From Bryobacterales bacterium (GTDB taxonomy: Bacteria; Acidobacteriota; Terriglobia; Bryobacterales; Bryobacteraceae), in assembly GCA_019261985.1 (NCBI GenBank), contig JAFAQY010000100.1, positions 1 through 64,000 of the forward strand: a stretch of DNA of 64,000 bases, written 5' to 3'. The position numbers were made by a program, and so were the translations under genes. Below, one piece after another: positions 12,265 through 56,000 of this stretch. Numbering within the stretch: position 1 is the stretch's first letter; the number at the start of each line of letters is the position of its first letter. Below the pieces are notes generated by a model that saw only the letters and a program-made list of their open reading frames with translations, was not told the DNA's origin and made no database searches.

Positions 12265-14108
12265 CGCGAAATACTGTTCGCCTGCAGCCAGTGCTCCAGG
12301 ACCAGCAGATACCACAACTGAACGGGAACCCGGTTCTGCCGCGACGCTTGCCCAAAAGCGATATCCAGCATTCCGGGACGAATCCACCCTTCACGAACCA
12401 GCCTGGTTTCGCCCCGAAGCGCGGCGAGGTCGTTGGTCCACCGTTCCGCAAGCCACCTTTCGACAGGCACCGTAAATCCCGCTTTCGGGCGATTCGCGAT
12501 CGCGGCGCCAACTCTGCGCTTGCAAATTTCGCGCAAGATGGCTTTTAAACGTAGGCCAGGCAGCCGCGTGGAAAAGGGAAGGGGCGCTGCGAATTCCCAA
12601 AGCTGGTGATCGAGGAACGGCGCACGGGCCTCCAGTCCATTGTGCATGCTGGCGCCGTCGACCTTTACCATGAATTCGCCGGTGAAGTGATGCCGCAGGT
12701 GATAGGCAAACACCTCCGCTTGGAGATTTCGAGCCGATGCGAGCGAGGGCTGTATATGTCGTCGGCGATTCGAATGCAGAAGACGGTCACCCAAGAGCGG
12801 AGCATAGTAGGCAGCGCGGTCTTGCGCTCCTACAAATCCGGCGAGACCCTGTGTAGAACAATTCAACAGCGTGCGGAGCCGACGCAAGGGAATGGATTTG
12901 TATTCGCTCGCCCCGATACGCGAACAGACCGGCACAAGCACCGGCGGAATATATCGGGCGACTTGCTCCGCGATTCGCGCATTTCGGAAAAACGGGTAGC
13001 CGAGAAAGACATCATCTCCGCCGTCGCCCGTAAGCAGCACCTTGGCGTGCGGCGCCACCGCTCGGGTCACGGCAAGCATGCCCAGCGCGGATTGGCAGGC
13101 AAACGGCTCGCCGAACGCAGTATTTAGTTCCTCAAGAGGCGGCGGACGATGCGCGGGGATGTGGATGACATCGTGTGGGATTCCCAGAACACAGGCGGTG
13201 TGGCGCGCCGCGGCGGTCTCATCCGAGGGGTCGCCCGGCGCGCCCACCGTGAATGCGTGTATATTCGCGTTCAAACGTTTCAGAGCCCAGCAGACCAGTG
13301 CCGAATCGATCCCGCCGCTGAGTAGCGCGGCAACGTTGACGTCGGCTACAAGTCGCACGCGGACCGCTTCCAGCAAACGGCTTTCGGTTTCCTCGATAGC
13401 CGCGTCGAACGACATGGAAGCGGATGAACCGGCCTGCGGCAGCGTCCAATAGAGTCGTTCCGATACGCGCCCGTTCTCCCATTCGAGAATCGTCGCCGGC
13501 GGCAGTTTGTGGATGCCGCAATAAATGGAGCGCTCTGCGGTAACGAAGCCGAATTTCAGGAAGTCCATGACGGATTCGCGGTCGATACCGCCGCACAAAC
13601 CCGCGGCCCTCAGCGCGCCAATGGTGGACGCAAACGCGAGCGAGCTTTCCGCGCGCCAGTACACCAGCGGTTTGACCCCTAAACGGTCACGCACCAGCGT
13701 CAGCCTCCGCCGCCGGTTATCCCAGATGCCGAAAGCGAACATCCCTCGCAGGCGGCGGACCATCTCGTCGATACCCCACTGTTGATAGCCATTCAGCAAA
13801 ACTTCGGTATCGCAGCGCGAGAAGAATTTCCGGCCGGCAGATTCCAGTTCGCGGCGCAGCTCCTGGAAATTGTAGATGCAGCCGTTAAAGACCACCGCCG
13901 TTTCGCGGTCTTCGGAGAGCATGGGCTGATTTCCGGCCGCGCTTAGATCGAGGATGGAGAGCCGGCGGTGTCCCAGCGCCGCCCCAGGCCACTCCTCGAG
14001 TCCCTCGGAATCGGGCCCGCGCCGGGCAAGCGCATCGGTCATCGCGCGCGTCGCGTCAAGAAGGCCGGCGTCACGGCGGGATGAGACAAATCCCGCTATT
14101 CCGCACAT
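12261..14108 (-). CDS. asnB: Asparagine synthetase (glutamine-hydrolysing)
   Basis: 615 residues. The mature N-terminus MCGIAGFV supplies the class-II amidotransferase nucleophile Cys2. The N-terminal glutaminase domain runs to about residue 200 (RRGPDSEG, GHRRLSILDLS, VVFNGCIYNFQELR). The synthetase domain follows with the ATP pyrophosphatase loop LLSGGIDSAL. It makes asparagine from aspartate and glutamine, or amidates another carboxylate. Members of this length beside glycosyltransferases often modify sugars in polysaccharide clusters, so a role other than free asparagine synthesis is possible. Its stop overlaps the downstream glycosyltransferase start. Confidence 0.92.
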   Translation of the reverse strand: MCGIAGFVSSRRDAGLLDATRAMTDALARRGPDSEGLEEWPGAALGHRRLSILDLSAAGNQPMLSEDRETAVVFNGCIYNFQELRRELESAGRKFFSRCDTEVLLNGYQQWGIDEMVRRLRGMFAFGIWDNRRRRLTLVRDRLGVKPLVYWRAESSLAFASTIGALRAAGLCGGIDRESVMDFLKFGFVTAERSIYCGIHKLPPATILEWENGRVSERLYWTLPQAGSSASMSFDAAIEETESRLLEAVRVRLVADVNVAALLSGGIDSALVCWALKRLNANIHAFTVGAPGDPSDETAAARHTACVLGIPHDVIHIPAHRPPPLEELNTAFGEPFACQSALGMLAVTRAVAPHAKVLLTGDGGDDVFLGYPFFRNARIAEQVARYIPPVLVPVCSRIGASEYKSIPLRRLRTLLNCSTQGLAGFVGAQDRAAYYAPLLGDRLLHSNRRRHIQPSLASARNLQAEVFAYHLRHHFTGEFMVKVDGASMHNGLEARAPFLDHQLWEFAAPLPFSTRLPGLRLKAILREICKRRVGAAIANRPKAGFTVPVERWLAERWTNDLAALRGETRLVREGWIRPGMLDIAFGQASRQNRVPVQLWYLLVLEHWLQANSISR

Positions 14109-49859: not shown

Positions 49860-50426
49860 CTAGTTCGTCGACTCCTTCCGGTGCAGATCGCGAACAAAGC
49901 CGTCGATCAGCGACGCTTCTGTCCCCTGGTCCAGCCGCGCCCGGATGCGTCTTTCGGCCAAATCCACAGCGAGTCCCGCCGCGAAGTCGCGCAATTCCCT
50001 TCGGGCAGCTTTGCCCGCGGATTCGATTTCGATCTCGGCCTGGCGCTCCAGTCTTTCGATCTGTGCGGCCGTTTCGTGCCGGATCCGCGCCCATTCTTCC
50101 GCCATCTCTTGTTGCGACTGTGCGCGGAATTTTTCGATTTCGGAGCCAAGCGCGCTCATGCGCGCCTCCATCTCGGCGGCGCGGCGCTCGGCATCGATTT
50201 TGGCTTGCTGCGCCTCCACGATGCTCTTGCGAATCGATTCGGTGCGCGATTGGAAGAACGTGGGCAGGTGCTTGGCAATTAAATAGCCTAAGCCAATCGC
50301 CAAAATGGCGAAATTCGCCCAAACCCAAACCGGCGATGGCTCGGATTCCGCGGCGGCGCCGGCGTGCTCCTGCGCAAAGCAGACTACGCCCGCGGCGAGA
50401 AGTAGGAGCAGCAGACGCTTCATCAT
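49860..50426 (-). CDS. atpF: ATP synthase b subunit
   Basis: About 188 residues. A short N-terminal hydrophobic segment (LLLLLLAAGVVCFAQ), a second membrane-like segment (PVWVWANFAILAIGLGYLIAKHLPTFF) and a long charged coiled coil. The N-terminal hydrophobic part could be a signal that is removed. The start at 50426 overlaps the b' stop (ATGA). It is the stator arm that holds delta against alpha. Confidence 0.92.
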   Translation of the reverse strand: MMKRLLLLLLAAGVVCFAQEHAGAAAESEPSPVWVWANFAILAIGLGYLIAKHLPTFFQSRTESIRKSIVEAQQAKIDAERRAAEMEARMSALGSEIEKFRAQSQQEMAEEWARIRHETAAQIERLERQAEIEIESAGKAARRELRDFAAGLAVDLAERRIRARLDQGTEASLIDGFVRDLHRKESTN

Positions 50427-50881
50427 GCCGCCTCCTGCGCCCGGCGCGTCAGAATACGATCGGCGATCTGATCGGCTAGAACGCCGCTGTTTGCAATCAG
50501 GTTCTGCCGGGCAGAGTCGGTCTCGGCGGAAATTTGCGAGCGCCCGTCTTTCACTTTTCCTTGCATTCGCTCCCGCACTGCCGCGACTTGCCCGGCATGA
50601 TCGTCGAGCCATTGTTTGCGGGTCTCTTCCTGCTGCTTATAGACTTCCGCCCGAGCCTCGTTCAGCTTGGCCTCATATTCCTGCGCCTTACGGTCCGCAG
50701 CGCTCAGGCTGGCTTCGGCTGCCTTCCGGGCGCCGGCAGTCAGTTGATCCCTTTCCTTCAGCACCTTTCGCAAGGGCGCGAAAAGCATGTATTTCAAGTA
50801 GAAATGCAGGAAAAAGATGAGGAGAACAGTGGGGATCGCCTTGATTAGAATCCCACTTAGCGCGTCGAGGGTTTGTGCCAT
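50423..50881 (-). CDS. atpF': ATP synthase b' subunit
   Basis: 152 residues: one membrane helix (ILIKAIPTVLLIFFLHFYLKYMLFAPL), RKVLKERD and a long charged coiled coil. A second, divergent b-type gene next to atpF is the b/b' arrangement known from several phyla. It is the first gene of the operon; no atpB (a) or atpE (c) lies upstream before the island. Confidence 0.9.
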   Translation of the reverse strand: MAQTLDALSGILIKAIPTVLLIFFLHFYLKYMLFAPLRKVLKERDQLTAGARKAAEASLSAADRKAQEYEAKLNEARAEVYKQQEETRKQWLDDHAGQVAAVRERMQGKVKDGRSQISAETDSARQNLIANSGVLADQIADRILTRRAQEAA

Positions 50882-50994: not shown

Positions 50995-51027
50995 GGTTAA
51001 ACCGTAAAGGGAATGGTTAGACCGTAA
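50995..51027. repeat. Two 13-bp direct repeats at the left edge of the island
   Basis: GGTTAAACCGTAA (50995-51007) and GGTTAGACCGTAA (51015-51027), 20 bases apart. They lie just outside the left attachment-like repeat and overlap the atp promoter region, so they could be recombinase arm sites or regulatory sites. Confidence 0.6.
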
Positions 51028-51055
51028 TTTATCATCGTGGGTCGGAGTTTCAGGG

Positions 51056-51075
51056 CTGGGGCGGCTGGTGGGATT
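51056..51075. repeat. Left attachment-like repeat (copy of tRNA-His 3' end)
   Basis: CTGGGGCGGCTGGTGGGATT, identical over 20 bases to 54461-54480. The match ends at once on both sides. Only this short piece of tRNA, in the same orientation, is present here, as expected of an att site left by integration. Confidence 0.8.
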
Positions 51076-51178
51076 TGGATGAACGCTGTCCCCTTTGCAT
51101 CAGTAAGTCATACAAGTTGCGTTCGCGCCGCGAACGCCAGGGCCACGTAACGAAGGACATCTGCTACACCCCGCTACG

Positions 51179-51655
51179 TCAGAGATCCGATCTTCCCGCG
51201 CAGCCCCATCGCGACGGCGGCACGCGATCCGGTGGCCTCATGAGGCGAGGATCCGACCGGAGCCGCGCCCCAACATCTCGTCTCCAGGCTAAAAACCGGC
51301 TGCCGAACACGACCATTGGCACGGTGCACTCGAAATATACGCCACACCAGGCGGCCCCAAAGTCGCCGCTATCGGCATTCACAGAGGCGTCAAACTCGAC
51401 CTGGACCAAATAATTGTGGTTGGCTTCAGCCTGAAAGTACGTCTCAGCCAGGGTGCTTCCCTGTTGGCTGTCTTCGTTGTCGTCCAACCAGTTGGCGTGA
51501 TCGTGCCAGGACGGGGACAGATCGGCCTGCCAAACCAACACTTTTGGTCCTTGGAAATCCGCTTGCATCCTCCATACAAAACCTGTGTCCCCAAAATCGA
51601 TCTGCCCGGTGTAGAAATCAGCTATGTCAAACCAGTTGTAGGAGTAGTTCCACAC
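51179..51655 (-). CDS. Beta-rich hypothetical protein, probable continuation of the upstream ORF after a +1 frameshift
   Basis: 158 codons from a GTG with no ribosome site. Rich in Trp, Tyr, Asp (NWFDIADFYTGQIDFGDTGFVW, VFGSRFLAW) and likely all-beta up to about residue 125, after which the sequence becomes arginine- and proline-rich and looks unnatural. A stop codon closes its frame just upstream, while the 120-residue ORF runs into it from the other frame. Skipping one base near 51650 would join them into one protein of about 260 residues (QRLAVR|WNYSYNWF). No family recognised. Confidence 0.55.
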   Translation of the reverse strand: MWNYSYNWFDIADFYTGQIDFGDTGFVWRMQADFQGPKVLVWQADLSPSWHDHANWLDDNEDSQQGSTLAETYFQAEANHNYLVQVEFDASVNADSGDFGAAWCGVYFECTVPMVVFGSRFLAWRRDVGARLRSDPRLMRPPDRVPPSRWGCAGRSDL

Positions 51656-51989
51656 GGACTGCTAAGCGCTGCATCAGGTCGTCTTCTTGCGCATAGAACA
51701 CCACCGGAAAGGACGCATGAACTGCACAGTAACCCGAGCCGAACGAACCAGTTTGCAAGATGCAAGAACCGTTTGATTCACCGGTCTTGGCAGTGTCCCC
51801 TTGGCAGGTCTGCCAGCCATAAAACGGATAATACGGCGGCACCGCCACCCCGAAGTTAGACCCCATCATCGCTTCGATCTTAGGCGGTTTGGGTCTCTCG
51901 ATCTTCCGCGGTTTCGGCCTCTTCTTCATCAAAGCTTGCTGTTCTTTGAGCTTTTTCAGGCGGAGGTCATCCTTCGAGAGATTATTCAA
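51627..51989 (-). CDS. Hypothetical island protein, N-terminal part
   Basis: 120 codons from TTG with AAAGGAGAG 8 bases upstream. A basic, lysine/proline-rich N-terminus (MKKRPKPRKIERPKPPKIE) is followed by a Gly/Ser/Cys-rich region (GWQTCQGDTAKTGESNGSCILQTGSFGSGYCAVHASFPVVFYAQEDDLMQRLAVRV) that looks beta-rich. It overlaps the 65-residue gene by 8 bases. The last residues before its stop look like a frame change into the ORF at 51655. Function unknown. Confidence 0.6.
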   Translation of the reverse strand: MNNLSKDDLRLKKLKEQQALMKKRPKPRKIERPKPPKIEAMMGSNFGVAVPPYYPFYGWQTCQGDTAKTGESNGSCILQTGSFGSGYCAVHASFPVVFYAQEDDLMQRLAVRVELLLQLV

Positions 51990-52179
51990 GAGAAGTTCTC
52001 TCCTTTAATTCCGCCCGCCGGGATACTTCGGCGAAGGCGGCCTGCTGTTGCTTAGAGCGCTCGGCCACGTAACGTTGCAGAAAGGCTCGTGATTCCTTGA
52101 GCACACTTTTGGGTGGCGGCCCTCCCAAGGCGCGCTCTATTTCTCTGACCTTCTCGGCTCCGTATGCAAAGACGTTCAT
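51982..52179 (-). CDS. Small charged helical protein of the island
   Basis: 65 residues, mainly helical (MNVFAYGAEKVREIERALGG, FLQRYVAERSKQQQAAFAEVSRRAELKERTSLE). AAAGGGGG precedes the ATG. It is the first gene of the leftward island operon and overlaps the next one. Not recognised; its charge pattern would suit a chaperone, binding partner or regulator of the downstream protein. Confidence 0.65.
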   Translation of the reverse strand: MNVFAYGAEKVREIERALGGPPPKSVLKESRAFLQRYVAERSKQQQAAFAEVSRRAELKERTSLE

Positions 52180-52848
52180 TGTGTTCCCCCTTTCCTGGAA
52201 TTAGACGATCAAAAGTCCATTTTGGAATGAGGAAAGACGATCGCCGCTCGTCACGGCGACTGTCACAATTGAGCCATCGCACTCTCCAGCAATCAGACCA
52301 GCGTCGGTGCATCCGATTGAGCGACTACGCGATGCCCAATCAAGGTTTCGTAAAACAACACAGCCGCCCCAATAGCGGTTGCAAGCACTAATACTCGCCT
52401 GTTCCTATACCTCCGCTCCTGTTAGCTGACCGCTTTGCGAATTAATAGGCAGCCACACATGCAGGTCTCCTAAAATCATCAGCGACTGTCCATTTTCGCA
52501 ATTGTTGCAAAATAGAGGCGGGTAGAAGCCAGAACGCTTTCGGGCTCTCAGCTCCCCGTCAAAATCTTACTTTCCCCCGAACAGAGCTGCCTCACCCTCG
52601 AGATACTCTCTCTTCGGGGACGTTTAATGACGGCGAATATAACTCTTTTTTGCTCCCGATGCAAGAGGAATTTTTGGAGTTCAACGTAGCTCAAAAAGAG
52701 CTGGGCTTACTCTACGAGACGCGCCCAGGCCATTCGATCACGTGGCGCTGACAAGCGCATAAAAAAACGCAAAAAAACGCTTGACGAGAGGTCCACGTTG
52801 TGATAACTTTTGTCGGATTTAGTGGCCAGGTAGAAGAGGAGGATTTCT
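52180..52848. other. Gene-free stretch between the two divergent island operons
   Basis: About 670 bases between the divergent start codons, AT-richer than the core genome, with A and T runs around 52630-52800. It must hold promoters for both operons; only the rightward one (52781) is clear. I see no tRNA, array or obvious terminator in it. Confidence 0.7.
52781..52809 (+). promoter_or_regulatory. Probable promoter of the rightward island operon
   Basis: TTGACG (52781-52786), 17-base spacer, TAACTT (52804-52809), preceded by A-tracts that could act as an UP element. The first small ORF starts 40 bases later. Confidence 0.65.
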
Positions 52849-53022
52849 ATGCTGGTTCGGTTTCCGGCCTCCCCTTATCGGGTTCGTCGCTCATGCCCAA
52901 GCTGCAGTCCACGCTCCGGAACCAGCTTCCTTTGCCATGCTGATGACCGCTCTTCGCTCCTGGCTCCTAACATGATCTCCGCTTTCAGCGGCGCGGTTAA
53001 AAATCGGCGAGTTCCAGCATGA
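52849..53022 (+). CDS. Small ORF after the island promoter, Shine-Dalgarno supported
   Basis: 57 codons (MLVRFPASPYRVRRSCPSC ... KNRRVPA), starting 6 bases after GAGGAGG. Arginine/serine rich, with CPSC and two other cysteines. It may be a real short protein or the first codons of a leader. Its stop overlaps another short ORF by ATGA. Not recognised. Confidence 0.45.
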   Translation: MLVRFPASPYRVRRSCPSCSPRSGTSFLCHADDRSSLLAPNMISAFSGAVKNRRVPA

Positions 53023-53099
53023 GAAAAGCTCTCGCACTCGATGTGTTTCCGCTCGCACTACTGCCGCAGTTGGACGAGCGCCAAGTATTTACAATTTAA
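53019..53099 (+). CDS. Very short ORF coupled to the preceding one
   Basis: 26 codons, MRKALALDVFPLALLPQLDERQ then VFTI. It begins within the previous stop (ATGA). Weak by itself; supported only by the overlap. Confidence 0.25.
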   Translation: MRKALALDVFPLALLPQLDERQVFTI

Positions 53100-53179
53100 C
53101 AAGCCGGGCACTACAAAACGGGGAGTTCCGAGTAGGATGTTGCGCCCAAAAAATAAAAGGTTAAATTTTTGGGCCTCTA

Positions 53180-53449
53180 GTGGCAACACTATTGTTTGCT
53201 TTGACGCGGATGGCGGACGCGGGGTTCAAGGACCGCTACGAAGTTGGACTTTGCCGAGGGCAAGTGGACTCGGGACGACACACAATTTCCGTATCTCGTA
53301 TACACGGCAGAGGAAGCAAACGCAACGGTTACCTCTTAGTCCCTCTATGCAAGTATTTATGGCCCCAAGCCGGGCTCAAACTGATCCGTTGCGATCAAAA
53401 TGAGCCACAGGGAGAAAAGGGGATTAATTCACAAAGGAGGCTGACATGA
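53180..53449 (+). CDS. Doubtful ORF ending on the PASTA gene start
   Basis: 90 codons from GTG without a ribosome site; its TGA overlaps the ATG of the PASTA gene by ATGA, the only argument in its favour. Composition is not convincing. The strong ribosome site of the PASTA gene lies inside its 3' end. Between 53100 and 53445 I see no better coding region. Confidence 0.2.
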   Translation: MATLLFALTRMADAGFKDRYEVGLCRGQVDSGRHTISVSRIHGRGSKRNGYLLVPLCKYLWPQAGLKLIRCDQNEPQGEKGINSQRRLT

Positions 53450-54315
53450 ATTATGACTTCGGGGTTCCATCGTTGGTGATCAACAATCAACGTGCTCTTA
53501 TACATGACAGCGACTACGCATCCCTTGGCATCGTGACTTTGGCTCCTGACGGGACGCAACTCAAAACGTACGGCCCCGTCTCGAAGTTCCTGGGCGACCA
53601 CGGCAAGGGAGCAGTCACCGTAGGCCTCGGATTCACCGACATTGATGTCCCGGATGGCGGATCGATGGGGGTGGTCTTCACAGTTATCAACAAGGGACAT
53701 GGTAGTGGAACCACCACGGATGCGCTGAACGTCCTCTGCGCCGGAATCGTGGGTGCCCTGGCGAGCGGTCAACTGGCAGGCGTATCACTTACTTATTCAG
53801 CAACGGGGACAGGCGTTTATGACACTTTTATAGCCTCAGCCGTTGCTATTCCAGCCTGGGAGGCCGCGGTAGGTATTGCCGTCGGGTTAGCCGTCCTGGA
53901 AGCCCTCCACCTGATCCTTGCGAACTGCGACGGGGTGGTCGTCCCCGGTACGATTCAATTCGGGCGCGGCACGCTGGACGAAGTCGCCAGCCAGGGACCC
54001 TGGGACGTGACAGTTCGTTATCCGGGCAGTGAAAGCCCGGAGGGTTGCGGAGCTAACTCCGACTACCAGGTGGATTACCGGGTCATAGCCAGTTCCGCCA
54101 AGGTCGAGGTGCCGAACGTGATAGGCCAAGATCCAGACACCGCGCTTAACACACTGAGCGGCCTAGGGCTGAACGGTGTGATTCGTGAGGAGCCCTCAGA
54201 CGATTACGAAGACTCGCGGATCACTGATCAACACCCGGGCGCAGGCGCAATAGTGTACCGTGGAACAACGATTACCCTTATTCAGTTGCGTCCCCGAGAA
54301 GGGCCACCGCGCTGA
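53446..54315 (+). CDS. PASTA-domain protein of the tRNA-His island
   Basis: 289 residues. AAAGGAGG 5 bases before the ATG gives strong translation. No signal peptide. A beta-rich N-terminal 110 residues (GIVTLAPDGTQLKTYGP ... VTVGLGFTDIDVPDGGSMGVVFTVINKG), a helical hydrophobic segment (FIASAVAIPAWEAAVGIAVGLAVLEALHLILANC), another beta part, and a C-terminal PASTA domain (VEVPNVIGQDPDTALNTLSGLGLNGVIREEPSDD ... HPGAGAIVYRGTTITLIQ, about 220-282). PASTA domains normally bind muropeptides or beta-lactams outside the cell. The N-terminal part is not recognised. It is the main gene of the island. Confidence 0.72.
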   Translation: MNYDFGVPSLVINNQRALIHDSDYASLGIVTLAPDGTQLKTYGPVSKFLGDHGKGAVTVGLGFTDIDVPDGGSMGVVFTVINKGHGSGTTTDALNVLCAGIVGALASGQLAGVSLTYSATGTGVYDTFIASAVAIPAWEAAVGIAVGLAVLEALHLILANCDGVVVPGTIQFGRGTLDEVASQGPWDVTVRYPGSESPEGCGANSDYQVDYRVIASSAKVEVPNVIGQDPDTALNTLSGLGLNGVIREEPSDDYEDSRITDQHPGAGAIVYRGTTITLIQLRPREGPPR

Positions 54316-54460
54316 TTAACATCGCTTCGCCGGAGATACAGGATTGTGATTCCAATGTATTTCGTCCTAACATCACCGAGAAGCGCGCCTACAAAGTCGC
54401 TACACGGATTGCTACACGGCGCTTTGTGGCTTGTATGTTATTGAAAAATAAAGCTATTGA

Positions 54461-54480
54461 CTGGGGCGGCTGGTGGGATT
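54461..54480. repeat. Right attachment-like repeat inside the tRNA-His 3' end
   Basis: Identical 20 bases to 51056-51075. It includes the CCA end and the 3' acceptor/T-arm strand of the tRNA-His gene, so recombination here keeps the tRNA intact. Confidence 0.8.
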
Positions 54481-54539
54481 CGAACCCACGACATCCAGAA
54501 CCACAATCTGGCGCTACTACCAGCTGAGCTACAGCCGCC
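54462..54539 (-). tRNA. tRNA-His (GTG)
   Basis: Cloverleaf on the minus strand: acceptor stem with the extra G(-1):C73 pair typical of tRNA-His, anticodon loop TTGTGGT (anticodon at 54504-54502), T-arm GTGGGTTCGAATCCCAC and encoded CCA. 78 bases including CCA. Its 3' end faces the island. Confidence 0.97.
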
Positions 54540-54551
54540 GTTTTCACCAGT

Positions 54552-56000
54552 TTATCGCAAACCGGCCTTCTTCCAAAGCTCGTCGACGCGGGCGCGGACC
54601 TCGTTGCTCATCCGAATCACATCCGGCCACGGCCGCGTGAAGCCTTCTTCGGGCCACTTCTTCGTTGCGTCGATCCCCATCTTCGAGCCGTAGTTCGGCA
54701 GCCGGCTGGAATGATCCAAGGAATCGACGGGTCCCATCACGAACTGAATGTCGCGCTCGGGGTCGATGTTATTCAGCGCCTTCCAGGCCACCTCGCGCAC
54801 ATTCTGGACGTCGACATCTTCATCCACAACCACGATGCACTTAGAGAACATCGCCTGGCCCAGGCCCCAGATTGCGTGCATCACCTTGCGCGCGTGGCCC
54901 GGGTACGACTTGCGGATCGATACCAGAATCAGGTTGTGGAAGATGCCCTCGGCGGGCATGCAGATGTCGCGGACCTCGGGCAATTGCAAGCGCATCAACG
55001 GGAGAAAAATGCGCTCAATCGCCTTTCCCATGTAGAAATCCTCCATGGGCGGAGGACCGACGATCGTCGTGGCATACACCGGCTTGTTGCGATGCGTGAT
55101 GCAGGTGATGTGGAACACCGGATATTCGTCCGCGAGCGAATAGAAGCCTGTATGGTCGCCGAAGGGTCCTTCGGTGCGCAGTTCGCCCAACTCAACATAG
55201 CCCTCGAGCACGATTTCCGCGTTCGCGGGGACTTCCAGATCGCATGTTTCGCACTTGACCATCTCGACCGCGTCGCCGCGCAGGAAACCGGCGATCATCA
55301 TTTCGTCCAGATCCGGCGGCAACGGCAGAATCGCCGAGTACATAGTCGCTGGATCGGCGCCAATCGCAACCGCGACGTCCATTCGCTTCGACTGACCGCC
55401 TGCACGCAGCCGGCGGTAGTGCTCGGCGCCCTGCTTATGGGTCTGCCAGTGCATACCGGTGGTGCGGCTGTCGAATACCTGCAGCCGGTAGCAACCACAG
55501 TTCCGCTTGCCTGTATCGGGATTGCGCGAGAAAACCATCGGCAGCGTGATGAAGCGTCCCGCATCGCCCGGCCAGCATTGCAGGATTGGAAATTCATCGA
55601 GCGAGAAGCCCTCGCGCCGAATATTTTCTTTGCACGGGCCGCCCGAAACAGTCTTTGGAAAAATCGACGCCAAATCGGCCAGCTTCGGGAGCATCTTCAA
55701 CTTCCCCAACATGCCCTCGGGCTTGCGCATGGCAATTAATTCAGCGATTCGCGCGGCCACATCCTCGGGCGAAGCTTCCAAAGCCAGCTGCATTCGCCGT
55801 TCGCCGGCGAACGCATTGATCAGCACCGGTATATGGGAGCCCTTCGGTTTTTCAAACAGGAACGCAGGTCCCCCGGTCTTGACCGAGCGATCGGCGAACT
55901 CCGCGATCTCGAGATGCGGGTCCACTTCGATAGAAACTCGCTTGAGCTCGCCGGCTTTGTCGAGCGCGCGCACGAAATCGCGTAGGTCTTTGTAGGGCAT
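54552..56000 (-). CDS. ubiD: UbiD family prenylated-FMN decarboxylase
   Basis: 482 residues. UbiD enzymes use prenylated FMN (from UbiX) to decarboxylate aromatic acids in quinone synthesis or related pathways. Typical parts: DLRDFVRALDKAGELKRVSIEVDPHLEIAE, GPAFLFEKPKGSHIPVLINAF, the prFMN/substrate region RTTGMHWQTHKQGAEHYRR, GEL-RTEGPFGDHTGFYSLADEYPVFHITCITHRNKPVYATTIVG and a C-terminal GIDATKKWPEEGF. It stands alone; ubiX is not in the window. A menaquinone or ubiquinone role is likely but a phenolic-acid role cannot be excluded. Confidence 0.93.
   Translation of the reverse strand: MPYKDLRDFVRALDKAGELKRVSIEVDPHLEIAEFADRSVKTGGPAFLFEKPKGSHIPVLINAFAGERRMQLALEASPEDVAARIAELIAMRKPEGMLGKLKMLPKLADLASIFPKTVSGGPCKENIRREGFSLDEFPILQCWPGDAGRFITLPMVFSRNPDTGKRNCGCYRLQVFDSRTTGMHWQTHKQGAEHYRRLRAGGQSKRMDVAVAIGADPATMYSAILPLPPDLDEMMIAGFLRGDAVEMVKCETCDLEVPANAEIVLEGYVELGELRTEGPFGDHTGFYSLADEYPVFHITCITHRNKPVYATTIVGPPPMEDFYMGKAIERIFLPLMRLQLPEVRDICMPAEGIFHNLILVSIRKSYPGHARKVMHAIWGLGQAMFSKCIVVVDEDVDVQNVREVAWKALNNIDPERDIQFVMGPVDSLDHSSRLPNYGSKMGIDATKKWPEEGFTRPWPDVIRMSNEVRARVDELWKKAGLR

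Follow-up and report, generated by a model that had tools for sequence, protein, structure and literature searches.

A probable integrase-made island without its own integrase, flanked by attachment sites at tRNA-His in a Bryobacterales genome

How did a second copy of the 3′ end of a histidine tRNA gene (tRNA-His) come to lie 3.4 kb from that gene, next to the ATP synthase (atp) operon of a Bryobacterales bacterium, a soil acidobacterium? The locus lies in the window, by which we mean the whole 64,000-nucleotide stretch of DNA that was analysed (contig JAFAQY010000100.1 of GCA_019261985.1), and the genome under study, G000, is a draft assembly of 138 contigs and 6.49 Mb. An earlier note, made from the letters of this DNA, had described the segment at 51056–54480 as a small genomic island that had entered at tRNA-His. 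We are confident that the island is an element made by an integrase, lacking an integrase of its own and flanked by attachment (att) sites.

Repeat and attachment-site architecture

The bases at 51056–51075 are the same as those at 54461–54480 in 20 of 20 positions by sequence comparison, and a search of G000 with up to one mismatch returned just these two sites. The proposed 20-bp duplication of the tRNA-His 3′ end is therefore exact at both places and unique in the genome, a duplicated 3′ end being the hallmark of tRNA islands made by tyrosine integrases. The identity had also been described as stopping abruptly; exact identity does end at each border, although towards the tRNA a single mismatch (A at 51076 vs G at 54481, minus-strand letters) is followed by one further matching base. 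Taken as the 21-mer CAAATCCCACCAGCCGCCCCA, the distal core equals the distal copy of a second genome of the genus, G020, at all 21 bases, and it reads CAAA where the host tRNA reads CGAA. A chance repeat or an assembly artefact, for which the draft state of the assembly could be cited, has a negligible probability: with up to three mismatches a 19-mer occurred twice in the window vs 0.02 expected, and this explanation is refuted by the same core in other genomes, the repeats of G020 and of a third congener, G004, beginning at the same base (CAAATCCC).

Elements encoding an integrase were found directly after tRNA-His in five genomes of related genera, namely G244, G124 (in which the tRNA is cut by an assembly gap), G130, G251 and G215; in all five a tyrosine integrase starts ~70–100 bases past the tRNA (starts in G251 and G215 judged by eye). 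We compared their flanks with those of the island, counting distances forward (+) from the CCA end and back (−) from the core. The motif TGTAGC stands at +46, +58 and −91 in G000 and at +46, +59 and −90 in G244, while a viral contig, L245, has TGTAGT at +47, +58, −101 and −90. Other motifs take similar places: GTACCA at +48, +60, −101 and −90 in G251, GTGCCA at +47, +58, −110 and −99 in G124, and CGTCTC at +46, +59, −93 and −82 in G020. TTGTAC lies at +46 and +58 in G215 and at +69 and +81 in G130, and CGTGCCAC occurs once per side in G004. A tandem-arm rule held for G000, G020, G244 and G124, for none of 33 other regions downstream of tRNA-His and for 1430 of 100,000 random window positions; a joint positional rule for the arms was satisfied by 134 of 2,000,000 random pairs, and a word rule that ignored position by 1125 of 200,000.

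Between the core and these arms lies a candidate bend-protein box at +16. Compared with the IHF consensus, in the form that we assume for it, the box was exact in G251 and L245 and differed by one base in G244, G124 and G020; within one mismatch, G215 had no match and G130 had one at +29. When a matrix was built from the boxes of G244, G124, G251 and G215 (the last shifted by one base), the G000 box at +14 to +32 ranked first of 127,964 window positions and that of G020 ranked 100, with the ranks of 17 control tRNA-His regions between 16,717 and 113,565. Judged by sequence, arm-type integrase sites thus appear to be present on both sides of the G000 core, and attL and attR both appear to have been kept.

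These arms also bear on another origin, in which the repeat would be left over from a rearrangement of the chromosome, for instance one in which recombination placed a tRNA-His fragment beside the atp region, and the 3.4 kb would be unrelated DNA. The flanking gene order is fluid in the genus, and lepB (signal peptidase I, a name taken from a Peptidase_S26 match in the G000 copy), a usual neighbour downstream of tRNA-His (9 of 20 relative loci), is on another contig, C134, in G000. Such an origin gives no reason, however, to expect arms on either side that are spaced as in integrase-bearing elements, and since no tRNA was found near lepB on the 14 kb of C134 that were fetched, there is no rearrangement partner there. 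With the arms speaking against it, we consider this origin very improbable.

Integrases, parallel inserts and proposed history

The three tRNA-His integrases that were aligned are 46–49% identical to the first of the set, and the family was matched at E≤1e-30 in 78 of 237 genomes of the taxonomic family. G000 had no relative of the tRNA-His integrases at this threshold; its nearest integrases are 23–28% identical to that of G244, none of its 11 integrase-domain matches lies on the contig of the island, and a contig search with the G244 integrase returned G244's own record and one distant stretch. Three tyrosine recombinase genes in a row were seen near the end of another G000 contig (C3, 36443–38852), a layout that we take to be a recombinase trio. 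Across 30 fetched loci with this integrase family, 21 had a tRNA or tmRNA gene: related integrases adjoin predicted selenocysteine tRNA genes at L210 (G107), L211 (G207) and L213 (G114), and others stand beside Leu, Lys, Ser, Phe and Ala tRNAs and tmRNA. This is one integrase family with many RNA-gene targets.

Two of the relatives are phage-like in content or source. The G251 element spans 38 kb between core copies and is a prophage with terminase, portal and head proteins. The 62-kb viral contig (L245/L272; IMGVR_UViG_3300036790_000395) carries the 19-mer at a site where no tRNA was found. Next to it comes an integrase that is 40% identical to that of G244; a search of 50,697 phage records gave this enzyme a single weak match (25%). 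The site looks as expected for the attP of a free phage, and its match to the family's tRNA-His suggests a host for the virus. In the other viral contig with the 19-mer, L244, the sequence lies inside a tRNA-His gene.

Searching the 237 family genomes with the 19-mer AATCCCAYCAGCCGCCCCA, which covers those whose tRNA-His matches it, we found 37 places in 32 genomes, 14 of the 23 genomes of the genus among them; four more of the genus (G001, G007, G014 and G015) were checked with their own tRNA tails over the stretch fetched. Core copies outside a complete tRNA gene occurred in G000, G020, G004, G244 and G124, one of the two in G124 being the tRNA-His cut by the gap and the other the distal copy. 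Inserts at tRNA-His without a recognised integrase were present in 3 of the 23 genus genomes, at 0.58 kb (G004), 2.2 kb (G020) and 3.4 kb (G000), and their contents are unrelated. In G004 the tRNA-His beside the insert (L121, 14681–14755) has no encoded CCA, which is kept in the distal fragment at 14081–14101; the insertion appears to have changed the 3′ end of the gene, and the presence of CCA in the distal copy alone suggests that this copy is the original 3′ end and points to the direction of integration. An empty and filled site pair exists in another genus of the family, where the distal flank of the G244 element shares 95.1% identity over 3,941 bases with the sequence directly after tRNA-His in G243.

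Decayed second cores were also sought. Of seven relatives with lepB downstream, six had best copies with 7–8 mismatches, inside the random-control range of 6–9, and these were rejected, as was a 14-base match 6.5 kb downstream in G018, taken as chance. In the seventh of these relatives, G014 (L123), a 21-base stretch ~3.07 kb downstream of tRNA-His has 5 mismatches to the tRNA tail, slightly fewer than the 6–9 of the controls, and might be a decayed second core.

Integration at a tRNA by a tyrosine recombinase, as the earlier note had it, agrees with the duplicated 3′ end, the phage-type arms on both sides, the integrase-bearing relatives with the same arm spacing and the G243/G244 pair. We propose that a phage-type tyrosine recombinase would have joined a circular DNA to the T-loop-to-CCA end of tRNA-His, that the element's own core would have rebuilt the tRNA gene, so that its 3′ end is presumably supplied by the end of the island, and that the displaced original 3′ end would have stayed at 51056–51077. 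The reading of the island as an integrase-less satellite or remnant likewise held up, with no integrase inside, no PHROG match and no close tRNA-His integrase relative in the genome. Because no integrase is encoded, we regard the island as a passive, att-flanked derivative resembling cis-mobilizable elements (CIMEs). It most likely decayed from a larger phage-type element, the simpler history given the broken look of one cargo gene and the lack of any recognised phage gene, and it might in principle be excised in trans if a matching integrase entered the cell.

Our confidence in the integrase-made, att-flanked nature of the island extends to a different history that shares this nature and departs from decay in its history alone: a satellite-like mini-element mobilised in trans, that is, a small circle using the integrases of incoming phages and never larger in this host. 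Inserts of 0.6, 2.2 and 3.4 kb lacking a recognised integrase in 3 of 23 genus genomes, unrelated in content and without a PHROG match in the tested open reading frames (ORFs) of G000 or G020, would fit such a history, as would the retention of both arms in G000 and G020 despite the absent integrase and the CAAA of the distal core, which departs from the host's CGAA as though the att site had its source in a different lineage. A precedent exists in the microcin H47 island, described in the relevant part of its report as excising without a recombinase of its own (PMC3191183). The second cargo gene looks broken, however, and the middle of the island is empty; neither a second copy nor a circle is known, the host is without a close integrase, and the arms of G004 are degenerate. 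We therefore hold this history to be unlikely, though it deserves consideration. With the two arms retained in G000 and G020, two of the three inserts that lack an integrase, such inserts could still move in trans as small units. Slightly more doubtful is the wider idea that tRNA-His in this genus serves as a docking port for tiny cassettes that keep only two phage-type att sites and rely on tRNA-His phages for an integrase, in the way that non-autonomous transposons depend on borrowed transposases; the three cassettes differ both in contents and in arm motifs.

Several points weigh against the preferred reading of an integrase-made element that decayed from a larger one. The +16 box of G000 differs from the assumed IHF consensus at two bases and does not pass a one-mismatch cut, the sole one-mismatch match in the P′ arm lying at +3 on the other strand. 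G004, without an integrase, and G130, with one, satisfy neither the tandem rule nor the matrix test; the loosest word rule was satisfied by 1162 of 50,000 random pairs, and the arm rules were drawn up after the sequences had been seen. As no phage gene was recognised inside, the case for a phage origin is carried by the att sites. Finally, among 40 stretches downstream of a core (38 after tRNA-His and 2 after a distal copy, with lengths from 76 bases to 18 kb), atpF′ was found in none at E<0.1, with a single chance-level match at E 0.82, and the distal flank of G000 matched none of them, so that the island's own empty site was not found.

Cargo, neighbours and the empty site

The features of the island and its borders are collected in Table 1. 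Its G+C content is 0.543 vs 0.589 outside, lower than that of all 1077 outside windows of the same length, in keeping with the A/T-richness reported before. Scans of its ORFs (Pfam, n=5; PHROGs, n=7; NCBIfam, n=3; PADLOC, n=6) revealed no integrase or transfer genes, and none of the seven ORFs had a PHROG match, those of the middle at 52164–52391, 52849–53022 and 53041–53403 included. Only chance-level matches (E 0.02–0.06) linked the cargo to the complete elements.

Table 1. Coordinates of the island's att sites, cargo and neighbouring genes
Feature	Position	Strand	Basis
tRNA-His (GTG), predicted integration target	54462..54538	−	ARAGORN and Rfam
tRNA-proximal att core copy, AATCCCACCAGCCGCCCCAG	54461..54480	−	sequence; genome-wide search
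Distal att core copy, CAAATCCCACCAGCCGCCCCAG, 20 exact bases plus A/C	51056..51077	−	sequence
atp-side flank of distal core, CCCCAGCCCTGAAACTCC			
Candidate box at +16 after CCA end, TTTCAATAACATA	54434..54446	−	fixed-offset matrix
P′ arm-type site 1, CCGTGTAGC at +43	54411..54419	−	
P′ arm-type site 2, CCGTGTAGC at +55	54399..54407	−	
Possible third P′ arm-type site, TTTGTAG (G244 and L245 motif), weak	54389..54395	−	sequence
P arm-type site, GTGTAGCA, ~92 bases before distal core	51162..51169	−	
Possible second P arm-type site, ACGTAGCG, degenerate, weak	51172..51179	−	sequence
289-aa cargo protein, C-terminal PASTA domain	53446..54315	+	Pfam PF03793, 1.4e-13
Island middle, no convincing gene	52180..53445	.	
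65-aa ORF, coiled-coil-like, no family over cut-off	51982..52179	−	
Cargo ORF without a family, 5′ part of a gene that is probably frameshifted	51627..51989	−	
Cargo ORF, probable 3′ part of same broken gene, ends at P arm	51179..51655	−	
atpF′ (ATP synthase B/B′), left neighbour	50423..50881	−	
UbiD-family decarboxylase (right neighbour); in relatives usually found upstream of tRNA-His	54552..56000	−	

That the island holds unrecognised genes only was nearly right, the exception being the C-terminal PASTA domain of its 289-aa product. The reading frame of this gene, the one intact gene of the island, is open throughout and has a good ribosome-binding site (by eye); weak, partial homologues (24–40%) turned up in 8 of the 398 other class genomes searched, and the protein had no match among phage or plasmid records or viral contigs. 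It is probably passenger cargo. Its PASTA part matched the PD-T4-6 models of PADLOC, which we do not take as evidence of defence. The two overlapping minus-strand ORFs probably represent one frameshifted gene, and the 3′ part had no viral contig match. Neither of the two genes searched, this 3′ part and the PASTA gene, had a homologue in 100 relatives, which contradicts the alternative, raised in the earlier note, that all relatives carry these genes at this place. No sigma-70-like promoter was found at 51000–54600 (shuffles averaged 2.0), and the tRNA alone was matched among RNA families in the island region. A terminator-like hairpin on the plus strand at 54411–54430, overlapped by a P′ arm site, could end the transcript of the PASTA gene; six such hairpins were found vs 4.3 expected.

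The island was said to interrupt ordinary core genes, which is true of G000, but the flanking order is not conserved in relatives. UbiD shares a stretch with tRNA-His in 16 of 20 fetched relative loci, and the adjacency of atpF′ and tRNA-His was seen in G000 alone. A relative with atpF′ adjoining tRNA-His had been predicted; none was seen in the 40 downstream stretches, in 14 long atp-side stretches, which held no tRNA-His, or in 29 short-flanked atp loci. The atp operon sits elsewhere in the relatives examined, which is why this empty site did not turn up, and we therefore infer the event in G000 from its att sites and the parallel cases. Upstream of the atp operon, most of the 20 genomes compared have different DNA, with blocks shared only within small sets (for example G009/G012 and G013/G020/G018), which suggests that the border beside this essential operon is often rearranged. 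As a further candidate, the left 20-mer was considered as a conserved atp leader, part of the operon's regulatory region, and was rejected, since the likeness upstream of atpF′ stops before the 20-mer (by eye, 20 sequences).

Comparison with known systems

A limited literature search returned no title on tRNA-His attachment sites in Acidobacteria, a bacterial group in which little is known of mobile-element biology. Integrase-less islands are often recognised by a short repeat alone, whereas here the att architecture can be read and matched to a viral contig and to prophage-type elements of related hosts. The island thereby offers a testable case of whether mini-islands are inert leftovers or passengers that are mobilised in trans.

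Temperate-phage att sites of the lambda Int layout consist of a core, a bend-protein box and tandem arm sites. The same order is seen here, followed by the integrase gene in the complete relatives; the island differs in having no integrase gene and a degenerate box. Phage satellites of the phage-inducible chromosomal island (PICI) and P4 types carry their own integrase and genes that redirect helper packaging; the island has no such integrase and showed no PHROG match in its seven ORFs.

CIMEs, in the portion of the source that defines them, are decayed integrative and conjugative elements (ICEs) or integrative and mobilizable elements (IMEs) (PMC5704250). Like the CIMEs described there, the island keeps attL and attR at a tRNA 3′ end and is without integration or transfer genes (PMC5704250). 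It differs in that the sole complete related element examined for gene content, that of G251, is a prophage and that a viral contig carries the same core; no ICE gene was seen in the island. We do not file it strictly as a CIME, because that term presupposes descent from an ICE or IME and the relatives that we examined are of phage type.

The islands at ssrA of Dehalococcoides, in the part of their description that concerns integration, share a 20-bp direct repeat of the 3′ end of a structural RNA, integration at the T-loop and variable downstream cargo, but they use a serine recombinase, and sixteen of those identified encode an integration module (PMC3146451). The microcin H47 island of Escherichia coli, in the corresponding part of its report, is likewise small, flanked by repeats and without a recombinase gene, with mobility proteins supplied from elsewhere; it spans 13 kb, has extensive imperfect repeats and has been followed through excision and integration by experiment, whereas the island here is known from sequence (PMC3191183). 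Set beside these systems, the tRNA-His island is a mobile-element remnant of a largely familiar type, though one with good support.

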